Shown here one piece after another: positions 28,950 through 33,124 of a stretch of 42,302 nt of DNA. The number at the start of each line of letters is the position of its first letter. Position 1 is the stretch's first letter. This stretch comes from a virus. The stretch is from IMG/VR virus record IMGVR_UViG_3300047470_000061, positions 1-42,302 of that record; one strand, written 5' to 3'. Below the pieces are notes generated by a model. The model worked only from the letters and a program-made list of their open reading frames with translations, was not told where the DNA came from and made no database searches. The translations under genes were made by a program, and so were the position numbers.

Positions 28950-29393
28950 ATGAGCACCATCACTTTCACCGGCAACATCGGCAAGTCTCAGGGCCTGAAG
29001 TTCAGCAACGACGGCAAGCCCCGCCTGTCGTTCTCCGCGGCTGAAACGGCGCGCGTCAAGGATCAGTCCGGGCAGTACGTGGACGGAGGCACAACCTGGT
29101 TCAACGTGACCCTGTTCGGCTACACCGCGGAGGCTTTGGACGCGCAGATCGCGGCTCAGGGCGGCAAGGGCAAGGTCATCGTCACGGGCCGCATGAGCAC
29201 CCGCGAATACGAGCACAACGGCGAGAAGCGCGAATCGTTGGACGTGGTCGCAGACTCGGTCGGACTCGTACCCCGCGGCCAGCAGCAGGGGCAGGGCCAG
29301 CAGCCCGCACAGCAGCAGCCGTGGGGCGGCAACCAGCCCGCCCAGAACCCCGGCGGCTGGGGCAACGGCAACCAGGCAGAAGCGCCCTTTTAG
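28950..29393 (+). CDS. ssb: Single-stranded DNA-binding protein
   Basis: A 147-residue protein with an OB fold (MSTITFTGNIGKSQGLKFSN, W-F-N-V-T-L-F-G, G-K-V-I-V-T-G-R-M-S-T-R-E-Y). It has a glutamine/glycine-rich linker (about 108-138) and the tail A-E-A-P-F, a variant of the usual acidic D-x-P-F tip that recruits replication partners. It is part of the recombination/replication operon. An upstream extension in the same frame overlaps the redoxin gene and is rejected. Confidence 0.92.
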   Translation: MSTITFTGNIGKSQGLKFSNDGKPRLSFSAAETARVKDQSGQYVDGGTTWFNVTLFGYTAEALDAQIAAQGGKGKVIVTGRMSTREYEHNGEKRESLDVVADSVGLVPRGQQQGQGQQPAQQQPWGGNQPAQNPGGWGNGNQAEAPF

Positions 29394-31130: not shown

Positions 31131-31459
31131 AGAACCCCACTGTTTACCGCGACATTTGCGGCACCGTCCCCGGCTACCGGGCGCACACCAAACGTGTAGA
31201 GGAAAGGTGCCAGCCCTGCAAAGAAGCTTGGACAATCCGCTGTCGCAAATACACCAAGCCCACACCCACCCTGCCAACAGCCGCCGAGGTCATCGCTGAG
31301 ATCGAGTGGATGCTCAGCCTCAACCAGGGCACCGGCTACATCCTGAAGGCTATCGGCTACGCGGGGCGCGAGGACTCACTCCGTTCACGCCTCCAGAAAT
31401 GGGGGCGCCTCGACGTGTACCACCGCCTCATCGGCGAAGAATATTGGGTGGCGGCGTGA
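31127..31459 (+). CDS. Zinc-finger-like protein (C-H-C-C)
   Basis: A 110-residue protein in an ATGA overlap. Residues 11-31 read CGTVPGYRAHTKRVEERCQP then C, giving C11, H20, C28 and C31 in an arrangement frequent in small actinophage proteins (C-G-T-x-x-G-Y-x-x-H...C-x-x-C). The C-terminal half (residues 52-110) is helical, with GTGYILKAIGYAGREDSLRS resembling an HTH. It probably binds DNA. Confidence 0.7.
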   Translation: MKNPTVYRDICGTVPGYRAHTKRVEERCQPCKEAWTIRCRKYTKPTPTLPTAAEVIAEIEWMLSLNQGTGYILKAIGYAGREDSLRSRLQKWGRLDVYHRLIGEEYWVAA

Positions 31460-31794
31460 GGTGGTTTGGCCGCAATGACGGCTACTACGTGTACTGGCTC
31501 TGCGACGAGTACGGCGTGATCTACGTGGGCTACACGGAGAACCCTGGTCGGCGAATCAACGAGCACCGCATAGACAAGGCGTGGTTCAAGGATGTAACGA
31601 AGATTGACATCAGCCGCTACGCCACGAAGGAAGAAGCCCTGAAGGAAGAGGCGATGTCGATCTTGTTCGGCGAGGATCTGCACAACATCCAGCTTCATAG
31701 CCGCATTGCCAAGGCGGCGTTCGCCGACGCGTCGGATGGTGTGCGATACGACGCACTAGAGCGCTACGAAAACGTCCCAGTTGGGAGATTCTGA
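31456..31794 (+). CDS. GIY-YIG nuclease
   Basis: A 112-residue protein from GTG 31456. The nuclease core is YYVYWLCDEYGVIYVGYTEN at residues 9-28, in which Y-V-Y...Y-V-G is the GIY-YIG pair, followed by P-G-R-R-I-N-E-H-R with the catalytic Arg and a later Glu. It is a single-domain form without a visible DNA-binding module, so it could be a homing nuclease remnant or a repair/recombination enzyme. It sits directly before the replication initiator. Confidence 0.82.
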   Translation: MRWFGRNDGYYVYWLCDEYGVIYVGYTENPGRRINEHRIDKAWFKDVTKIDISRYATKEEALKEEAMSILFGEDLHNIQLHSRIAKAAFADASDGVRYDALERYENVPVGRF

Positions 31795-32744
31795 TGGCGC
31801 GAGAACATGCCAGGATCCAGACTGCGATCTGGCTTGACGATGACTTCCTAGACCTCACCCCGGAGGCTCAGCACCTCTACCTTGTGGTGACTACGCAGAT
31901 GTCACTGAACTTCTGCGGCGTCACGGCATGGCATGCCGGCAGGGTGTCACAGCTCGCCCACGGCTGGACCGTGGCGCGGGTAGAAGCTGCCGCAGCGGAA
32001 CTATCGGCAGGCCTATACCTGGTCATTGACGAGACGACAGGCGAAGTGCTGGTGCGGTCATTCATCCGCAACGATGGGCTGCTGTCATCCCCCAATATCG
32101 CCAAGGCCATGTACCGGAAGTTCTCGGAGATCGGCTCACGGGCGATCCGCGGCGTTGTCGTTCACGAGTTGAACCGCCTGCACGATGAGGAGCCGCTACT
32201 GAAGGGCTGGGAAGCGTGCCGGGAACTGCTCAGCAAGCGGGCGACGGACCCCCGCGAACTGCCATTGTTCAACCCTTCCGCACCCGCTTTTGAAACCCTT
32301 CCCGAAACCCTTCCGCAAACCCTTTCCGAACCGGCGCGGAACCCTTCCGATGCTCCCTACTCCCTTCTCCCTACTCCTAACTCCCTAACTCCTCACTCCC
32401 CGCCAAAAAGCGGTTACCCCGCCGACTTCGAGAAGTTGTGGAATCTCTACCCGGCAAAGCGTGACAAGAAGGCCGCATACAAGGCCTACCAAAAAGCAGC
32501 CAAGGAAGCCGACTACGAAACCCTCGCCGCTGGTGTTGTCCGCTACAGGGACGACCCGAACCGGGAGCCCCAGTTCACCAAGCACTTCGGCACATGGCTG
32601 AATGCGGGCTCCTGGGATGACGAGCCACTGCCAGCCCGTGGTGGCAGGGCAATGGATCACAGTTCCCGCGGACTCGCAAAGGGCATGGCGATGCTCCAGG
32701 CTTACGACGCACAACAGTCATCATTCCCAGAGATTGAAGGATAG
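31794..32744 (+). CDS. Replication initiator-like HTH protein
   Basis: A 316-residue protein. The N-terminal 100 residues look like a winged HTH (TAIWLDDDFLDLTPEAQHLY...W-H-A-G-R-V-S-Q-L-A-H-G-W-T-V). A disordered linker (about 158-205, rich in P, T, L, N, S) follows. The C-terminal domain has FEKLWNLYPAKRDKKAAYKA and H-F-G-T-W-L-N-A-G-S-W-D-D-E, typical of phage initiator and helicase-loading proteins. The linker DNA is made of repeats that probably form the origin, as in the lambda O gene. Confidence 0.8.
   Translation: MAREHARIQTAIWLDDDFLDLTPEAQHLYLVVTTQMSLNFCGVTAWHAGRVSQLAHGWTVARVEAAAAELSAGLYLVIDETTGEVLVRSFIRNDGLLSSPNIAKAMYRKFSEIGSRAIRGVVVHELNRLHDEEPLLKGWEACRELLSKRATDPRELPLFNPSAPAFETLPETLPQTLSEPARNPSDAPYSLLPTPNSLTPHSPPKSGYPADFEKLWNLYPAKRDKKAAYKAYQKAAKEADYETLAAGVVRYRDDPNREPQFTKHFGTWLNAGSWDDEPLPARGGRAMDHSSRGLAKGMAMLQAYDAQQSSFPEIEG
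32271..32391 (+). repeat. Candidate replication origin: iterons plus 14-bp tandem repeats
   Basis: Five copies of AACCCTTYCG-type iterons begin at 32271, 32294, 32306, 32318 and 32340 (spacing 23, 12, 12, 22). The copies at 32271 and 32340 encode N-P-S, while the middle three are read in another frame as T-L-P or T-L-S. Directly after come three tandem copies of CTCCCTACTCC or a close variant at 32353, 32367 and 32381 (14-bp period, not a multiple of three), all pyrimidine. Repeats that ignore reading frame argue for DNA function. Position inside the initiator gene matches lambdoid origins. Confidence 0.68.
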
Positions 32745-32746
32745 CC

Positions 32747-33124
32747 ATGGACCACAAGCAGACAATCGCGATGCTGACCTGGGTGAACCAGGTTGACCCG
32801 CGCGTGATGTTGAACGAGGCGAACGTCGAAGTGTGGGCGTATGCGATGCGGAACACGCCGGCGGATGTTGCCAAGCAGGCCGTGTTGGAGCATTACAAGG
32901 CGAACGAGAGTATCGCCGCCAGTCCGGGTGCGATCAGCAAGCGGTCGGCGAACATTCGGACGAGCCGTGAAGCCGGGGAGCGGGCGATTGCGTTGGAGCC
33001 TGCAAAGCCGGTTGCGCATCCGATGTCGTGGCGGGCGAGGAACCCGGAGGAGTGGGATCGGCTGCAAGAGGTGGGGCGGCAGGAGCGGCAAAGGGACCTG
33101 GCAAGCCGTGGGCGTGCCCTGTGA
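32747..33124 (+). CDS. Helicase-loader-like or replication accessory protein
   Basis: A 125-residue protein right after the initiator. MLTWVNQVDPRVMLNEANVE, then V-W-A-Y-A-M...A-D-V-A-K-Q-A-V-L-E-H-Y...S-P-G-A-I-S-K resembles the N-terminal domain of phage helicase loaders (G39P-like: W, A-L-x-x-H-Y, P-x-x-I). The C-terminus is basic. The loader role is inferred from context and weak pattern similarity; it could be an uncharacterised replication protein. Confidence 0.6.
   Translation: MDHKQTIAMLTWVNQVDPRVMLNEANVEVWAYAMRNTPADVAKQAVLEHYKANESIAASPGAISKRSANIRTSREAGERAIALEPAKPVAHPMSWRARNPEEWDRLQEVGRQERQRDLASRGRAL

Follow-up and report, generated by a model that had tools for sequence, protein, structure and literature searches.

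The AACCCTT repeats in the centre of a phage replication initiator gene are real, and comparison with relatives showed that they are selected as DNA rather than as peptide and tolerate both inversion and loss of coding. They are best explained as a replication origin of the iteron type, nested in the gene for the initiator that would bind it. We regard this as likely; protein binding, strand opening, helicase loading and the start of replication are inferred. The window analysed here is the whole of an IMG/VR virus record of 42302 bases. A preliminary description of its sequence had proposed origin-like iterons inside the initiator, and our analysis supported this proposal, with origin activity itself remaining an inference.

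The initiator gene and its internal repeats

The initiator consists of an N-terminal DNA-binding-type domain, a repeat-bearing linker and a C-terminal domain. The repeats and the tract behind them sit between the two domain matches, i.e. in the centre of the gene. The features are as follows.

31794..32744, + strand: replication initiator gene, 316 aa (PHROG 3171 and phrog_270 profile matches)
31794..32264, + strand: N-terminal domain, the most conserved part of the family and the inferred iteron binder (DNA binding is inferred)
32271..32280, + strand: iteron 1, AACCCTTCCG, read N-P-S; kept in L024, the closest relative found
32294..32303, + strand: iteron 2, AACCCTTCCC, read T-L-P; kept in L024
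32306..32315, + strand: iteron 3, AACCCTTCCG, read T-L-P; inverted in place in L024 (AAGGGTT, R-V)
32318..32327, + strand: iteron 4, AACCCTTTCC, read T-L-S; kept as AACCCTTCCA in L024
32340..32349, + strand: iteron 5, AACCCTTCCG, read N-P-S; kept in L024
32353..32399, + strand: G-free tract of ~7-bp repeats, inferred from its sequence as an unwinding or loading element; repeats cleaner in L024
32410..32422, no strand assigned: small weak palindrome GCGG-TTACC-CCGC after the tract (DNA fold -4.1 kcal/mol, z -2.2)
32415..32700, + strand: C-terminal domain, exchangeable between initiators (phrog_270 and phrog_9327 'primosomal protein' matches)
32747..33124, + strand: small downstream gene, possibly a helicase-loader-type partner on weak evidence (phrog_2289, phrog_8924)

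The PHROG 3171 'replication initiation protein' profile matched initiator residues 1-208 (E 1.2e-63), which places the protein in that PHROG, and phrog_270 matched residues 191-289 (E 8.9e-22). No Pfam family was matched at E <= 0.1, so by Pfam the protein belongs to neither Phage_rep_O nor RepA_N, and NCBIfam gave no match. Relatives of the initiator were present in ~390 sequenced phages, mostly of Gordonia, Mycobacterium and Arthrobacter; single-protein scans with the initiator returned one relative among viral contigs and none among genome contigs. A search of solved structures with three initiator alignments gave nothing credible and no structure related by sequence. The circumsporozoite protein, a structural match of alignment A2, was rejected because only low-complexity NPN-type similarity was involved. 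The small gene downstream matched phrog_2289 'helicase loader' at E 0.019 and phrog_8924 at E 6e-9, and a 'helicase loader' is annotated at the same place in relatives, e.g. Thimann gp70. Directly upstream of the initiator lies a GIY-YIG endonuclease-like ORF (31306-31794), and several relatives have an HNH endonuclease there.

The five AACCCTT sites are spaced 23-12-12-22. Three are exact AACCCTTCCG and two carry one mismatch to AACCCTTYCG. Iterons 1 and 5 are read in frame 0, and iterons 2-4 in frame 2. At 12-bp spacing iterons 2-4 are in step with the codons (12 = 4 codons); only iterons 1 and 5 and the tract are out of step. When one mismatch was allowed, the whole 42 kb contained 13 iteron sites against 4.9 expected, five of them within 79 bp. 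Scored by repeated 6-, 7- and 8-mers on both strands, the iteron block was the top-scoring 120- and 160-nt segment of the record. Synonymous resampling with the phage codon usage never reached the observed repeat score (0/20000 trials), and permuting codons inside the linker alone reached it in 4-5 of 20000.

The tract (32353-32399) reads CTCCCTA CTCCCTT CTCCCTA CTCCTAA CTCCCTAA CTCCTCA CTCC. It is G-free, with 84% C+T in its best 45 nt, and at 53% G+C it is not AT-rich. The preliminary description was thus right about the number and spacing of the iterons, about their reading as N-P-S (copies 1 and 5) or T-L-P/T-L-S (copies 2-4) in two frames, and about the tract being out of step with codons. 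It was wrong in giving the tract as three tandem 14-bp repeats, which is instead a degenerate ~7-bp repeat, and in calling it all-pyrimidine.

No DnaA box (TTNTCCACA) was found on either strand of the window. A G-quadruplex on the complementary strand was considered and dropped: the GGG runs occur in the window and L024 and are absent from most relatives. GC skew, proposed earlier as a check, gave weak support in the window, where a local cumulative minimum lies at 32588 with an unexceptional step (one as strong or stronger occurs at 7-19% of positions). It gave no support in the three relatives Bran, Mufasa8 and Mbo4, which lack a step of the window's sign.

Two other kinds of repeats were noticed in the record. 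Two 33-nt tandem repeats (29280-29345, CAGCAG-rich), at the end of the ORF before a methyltransferase-like gene, form its second-best repeat block at k = 6 and probably encode a Gln-rich protein tail. Five near-identical + strand sites of the form TCACTG-N4-TCACTG (21487, 27251, 33126, 33526 and 37127; e.g. TCACTGTAAGTCACTG, TCACTGTGATTCACTG) are scattered over the record and resemble dispersed operator or regulatory sites.

The repeats are conserved as DNA

The N-domain of L024 is 81% identical to that of the window. Sites 1, 2, 4 and 5 are in place in L024, and site 3 is inverted in place: the window has GAAACCCTTCC (T-L-P) where L024 has GAAAGGGTTCC (R-V-P), and the AAGGGTT of the latter is the exact reverse complement of AACCCTT. 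The L024 tract consists of cleaner CTCCCTA repeats, which are read in all three frames. Amino-acid identity between window and L024 fell from 0.80 in the N-domain to 0.59 in the iterons and was 0.82 in the tract. At identical residues, the codon differed in 57/120 cases in the N-domain and 31/76 in the C-domain. The two flanking domains together thus had 88/196 such synonymous differences and iterons plus tract only 6/30, a lower share (Fisher p = 0.01). Since the peptide repeats change in L024 while the DNA sites stay, selection acts on the DNA rather than on the peptide, as had been claimed earlier. The pattern named as refuting that claim, a kept peptide with synonymous drift of the DNA, is the opposite of what L024 shows.

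Arthrobacter phage Mufasa8 provided a further comparison. Its initiator ORF is truncated and ends after the N-domain. Directly past the stop there are many copies of AACCCTTC and GAAGGGTTC in both orientations, followed by ACTCCTTA repeats; a short ORF annotated over part of this array (gp50) is in a frame different from that of the initiator. L040, L043 and L160 resemble Mufasa8, with array and tract partly persisting beyond the initiator stop. ORFs that hold only the N-domain and have the array downstream (Mufasa8, L043) fit a linker that is dispensable for the protein, and the activity of these ORFs is unknown. The comparison with related phages suggested in the preliminary description gave sites conserved as DNA, with a changed peptide in L024 and outside the initiator frame in Mufasa8.

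Site grid, tract and protein type across the family

In 62 non-redundant relatives, the density of the ACCC core was 42.7/kb in the linker versus 9.6/kb in the N-domain, and the linker was higher in 59 of the 62 loci. Of 650 same-orientation ACCC pairs, 437 had a distance of 12, 24 or 36 bp (56 expected); of 405 opposite-orientation pairs, measured between site centres, 179 fell on the same grid (35 expected). These counts are inflated by kinship of the sequences. Despite this inflation, the comparison showed that peptide repeats do not explain the opposite-orientation peak. Synonymous resampling with each gene's own usage gave repeats at p < 0.05 in 36 of 52 genes, without multiple-test correction.

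A simple-repeat tract follows the array in most relatives, and strong hairpins come after it in L058, L101 and L097. Some N-domain relatives have few or no ACCC sites, e.g. L093, L095-L097 and L098; in L093 and L095-L097 the array is missing, whereas the tract is retained and has hairpins and the DnaA box TTATCCACA behind it. A perfect box of this sequence lies 26-74 nt past the tract in L057, L087, L093, L095, L096 and L097, all relatives without the ACCC array, with one or two hairpins between tract and box. The motif GTTACGTAAGTA is conserved just after the tract in L010, L012, L017, L041, L043 and others, also where this stretch is non-coding (L043).

In 29 of 70 loci, A or T recurred at every third tract base more strongly than in 95% of background windows. 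In the actinophage set, third-base T in NCN codons was found in 319/597 cases in the tract versus 188/1903 in the N-domain, and in loci of the proteobacterial type it is A, on the other strand, that shows the third-base periodicity. The tract of relatives resembles the strand opposite the DnaA-trios of B. subtilis and lies on the same side of the binding sites; that B. subtilis strand also holds TnnT motifs bound by DnaD (PMC10201434, PMC8287927). The tract of the window has a periodicity of 7 bp, not 3 bp (T every third base: longest run 3). In the trio test (a significant run of >=3 consecutive NAN) it gave a run of 3, which 77% of background windows reach, and a DnaA-trio reading of the window's own tract was rejected on this ground. 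Because of this failure and the 7-bp period, a trio-like mechanism is at most a hypothesis at the level of the family, which we keep only as a possibility.

The sites follow the N-domain, as comparison of initiators showed; binding by this domain is inferred. Coral, KHumphrey and Galaxy (Arthrobacter; L005, L020 and L023) have another N-domain with a similar C-domain, and their internal repeats, located roughly between nt 280 and 440 of the gene, are different (GGGGTGAA and AACCGTCC). Initiators with the same C-domain and another N-domain thus carry other repeats, which suggested a division of labour between the two domains. The GGGGTGAA/AACCGTCC repeats could perhaps be a second type of internal origin. 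Initiators with the C-domain only had been considered as a repeat-free control, and this was abandoned because Coral, Galaxy, KHumphrey and Goib have internal repeats of their own, with other sequence.

IMG/VR was also scanned by DNA pattern alone, as three AACCCTT at 11-13 bp pitch without any protein information. This yielded at least 119 stretches, of which 80 were turned into loci. A PHROG 3171-type N-domain lay within ~370 nt of the array in 31 of the 80. When a diverged group (phrog_1701 'DnaD-like helicase loader', phrog_6251) was added, 44 loci were assigned by profile, and a few more (the 'MAKRFTD...' type), assigned by eye from position and layout, brought the number to ~50. The ~19 loci beyond the 31 carry diverged initiators with an unchanged layout; proteobacterial types are among them, and the G+C content of their genomes is 31-61%. 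Their arrays begin ~355-493 nt into the ORF, and the tract behind them is (CAGGAA)n, (CAGTAA)n, (AAGGAT)n or (CTACCT)n. Comparison of N-domain profiles between the PHROG 3171 type and these array-bearing initiators gave probability 97.9 and E 4e-13. Among named phages, two AAGGGTT sites at a distance of 12 bp precede a CAGGAN tract in Klebsiella phage ST13-OXA48phi12.4, a variant (CCCCTT) occurs in Acinetobacter phage A3926.3, and Citrobacter phage Chris1, when checked, had no clear array.

No recognised initiator was found at ~30 of the 80 loci, and some of these are likely to be chance. Six loci (L116, L127, L131, L143, L154 and L178) belong to a recurring virus group with AACCCTT arrays in which the initiator was not identified; about 1.1 kb separates their arrays from the beginning of an ORF of 366-373 aa whose function is unknown. 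The RA3 plasmid was discarded as a carrier of the motif, because it occurs there in primer sequences only, a coincidence.

A bolder reading is that one ancient superfamily of phage initiators (PHROG 3171, 1701, 6251 and relatives), spread over phages of Actinobacteria, Proteobacteria and probably further groups, shares a single origin design in its linkers: AACCCTT sites arrayed on a 12-bp grid, with a simple-repeat tract of 6-bp or 3-bp units behind them. The binding site would be kept while the protein linker is free to follow. We consider this reading as likely to be wrong as right. As the hosts of IMG/VR records are unknown, its cross-phylum part is based on the type of protein, the base composition and a small number of named records.

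The origin model, its alternatives and known systems

In the proposed mechanism, the N-terminal domain would bind AACCCTT sites on a ~12-bp grid in either orientation, and the bound initiator molecules would assemble rightwards, the complex spreading towards the tract. The adjacent G-free simple-repeat tract would then open or present a specific single strand, and the C-terminal domain, together with the small downstream gene as putative loader, would bring in the helicase. The model is supported by the identity of the initiator, the rank of the iteron block as top repeat block, the inversion in L024, the fewer synonymous differences and the persistence of the repeats in Mufasa8, as well as by the family grid in both orientations, the retrieval of initiators by the pattern scan and the linkage of repeats to the N-domain. 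Against it, there are no binding, replication or marker-frequency data, and the evidence is comparative only. The GC skew is weak, the tract is not AT-rich and the window has no DnaA box; some N-domain relatives lack ACCC sites, and the initiator-less pattern loci count against it as well.

The repeats might instead be initiator-binding sites for autoregulation of transcription or for titration, with the origin elsewhere. The comparative data show an element of the protein-binding kind (binding itself being inferred) and cannot separate a control site from an origin, and the GC skew does not consistently mark the site as an origin. However, the array lies mid-gene, and a search of 31700-32800, limited to the sigma-70 consensus, found no promoter-like site. 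The tract is kept immediately 3' of the array and is joined in some relatives by hairpins or DnaA boxes; this is the layout of an origin, and the record has no higher-scoring repeat block. We therefore hold this alternative to be unlikely. It is also improbable that host DnaA, rather than the phage initiator, opens the tract by using it as a DnaA-trio element. In favour of this, the tracts of L103 (CTACTACTACTACTACTTCTACTACTA) and L097 (CTACTACATCTACATCTACA) read like 5'-CTACTATTACTTCTACTA-3', the strand opposite the B. subtilis trios (PMC10201434), and the six relatives named above have TTATCCACA boxes past the tract. Against it stand the absence of a DnaA box from the window, the 7-bp period of its tract with a 3-base run not above background, and the third-base A on the other strand in proteobacterial-type loci.

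Least likely of all is that the repeats serve the protein as a flexible, repetitive Pro-rich linker, the DNA repeats being a by-product of codon repetition or recent duplication. Three copies at 12-bp spacing are indeed in codon phase, and the repeat region is a low-complexity linker. This reading is contradicted by the observations: the in-place inversion in L024 alters the peptide, the same DNA occurs in two reading frames, the repeats persist outside the frame in Mufasa8, synonymous shuffles fail to reproduce them, and NCN codons of the tract show the third-base T bias.

The origins of most actinobacteriophages have yet to be mapped, and annotation calls their initiators no more than 'hypothetical protein' or 'RepA-like'. 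If the origin model is true, the sequence alone would reveal the origins of hundreds of phages, and laboratory vectors could be built on minimal replicons of ~150 bp. The inversions and truncations found in nature would then serve as test cases for the way in which sites are read by an initiator. A core shared by the initiators of distant phages would make initiator-origin co-evolution directly testable. We found no description of AACCCTT iterons in this initiator family in the open-access literature searched.

Origins inside initiator genes are established in lambdoid phages (PMC7466680), in SPP1, whose oriL lies in gene 38 (PMC6316719), and in pSK41 rep (PMC5703833). The parallel with the lambda origin in gene O, drawn in the preliminary description, held in part: the layout agrees, with tandem iterons mid-gene and then an unwinding region (a role only inferred for the window), but sequence membership does not. 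The window initiator has no Phage_rep_O Pfam match, its tract is G-free at 53% G+C whereas lambda has four iterons of other sequence and an AT-rich region, and sites of the window family may be inverted in place. The closer parallels are pSK41 rep and SPP1 gene 38. SPP1 oriL likewise has direct repeats in the initiator gene, an adjacent unwinding element and a dedicated helicase loader, the last two being inferred for the window; unlike the window, SPP1 has a second origin, oriR, and AT-rich unwinding elements, and homology of gp38 to the window family is untested. In many relatives, binding sites followed by a trinucleotide-periodic element on the same side recall the bacterial basal unwinding system (PMC8287927, PMC10201434). 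In contrast to that system, the initiator sites are not DnaA boxes, and the window has neither a DnaA box nor 3-bp periodicity.

For mycobacteriophage prophages (Miko and others), Wetzel et al. found no repeats outside repA and inferred an origin in or next to it (PMC7157519). The Miko origin depends on RepA, a RepA-like initiator, in which it is like the window. However, the N-domain profile did not pick up Miko RepA, and its gene lacks a repeat block of this kind; as a different family, it was rejected as a characterised member. In pSK41 rep, a RepA_N protein, the N-terminal domain binds Rep boxes in the centre of rep, the central domain is an origin-encoded linker and the C-terminal domain is separate; in the natural RepA_N-type chimera pPR9, N-domain and origin were exchanged together (PMC5703833). 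The origin candidate of the window is likewise central in its gene and encodes the linker between two domains, and the repeats of its family change with the N-domain as in pPR9. It differs from pSK41 in the missing RepA_N Pfam match, in the AACCCTT core, the 12-bp grid with inversions and the G-free tract, and in belonging to a phage of a G+C-rich lineage. By analogy, with origin function inferred, the AACCCTT-iteron case would work like the known initiator-nested origins, yet by Pfam it stands outside both Phage_rep_O and RepA_N.
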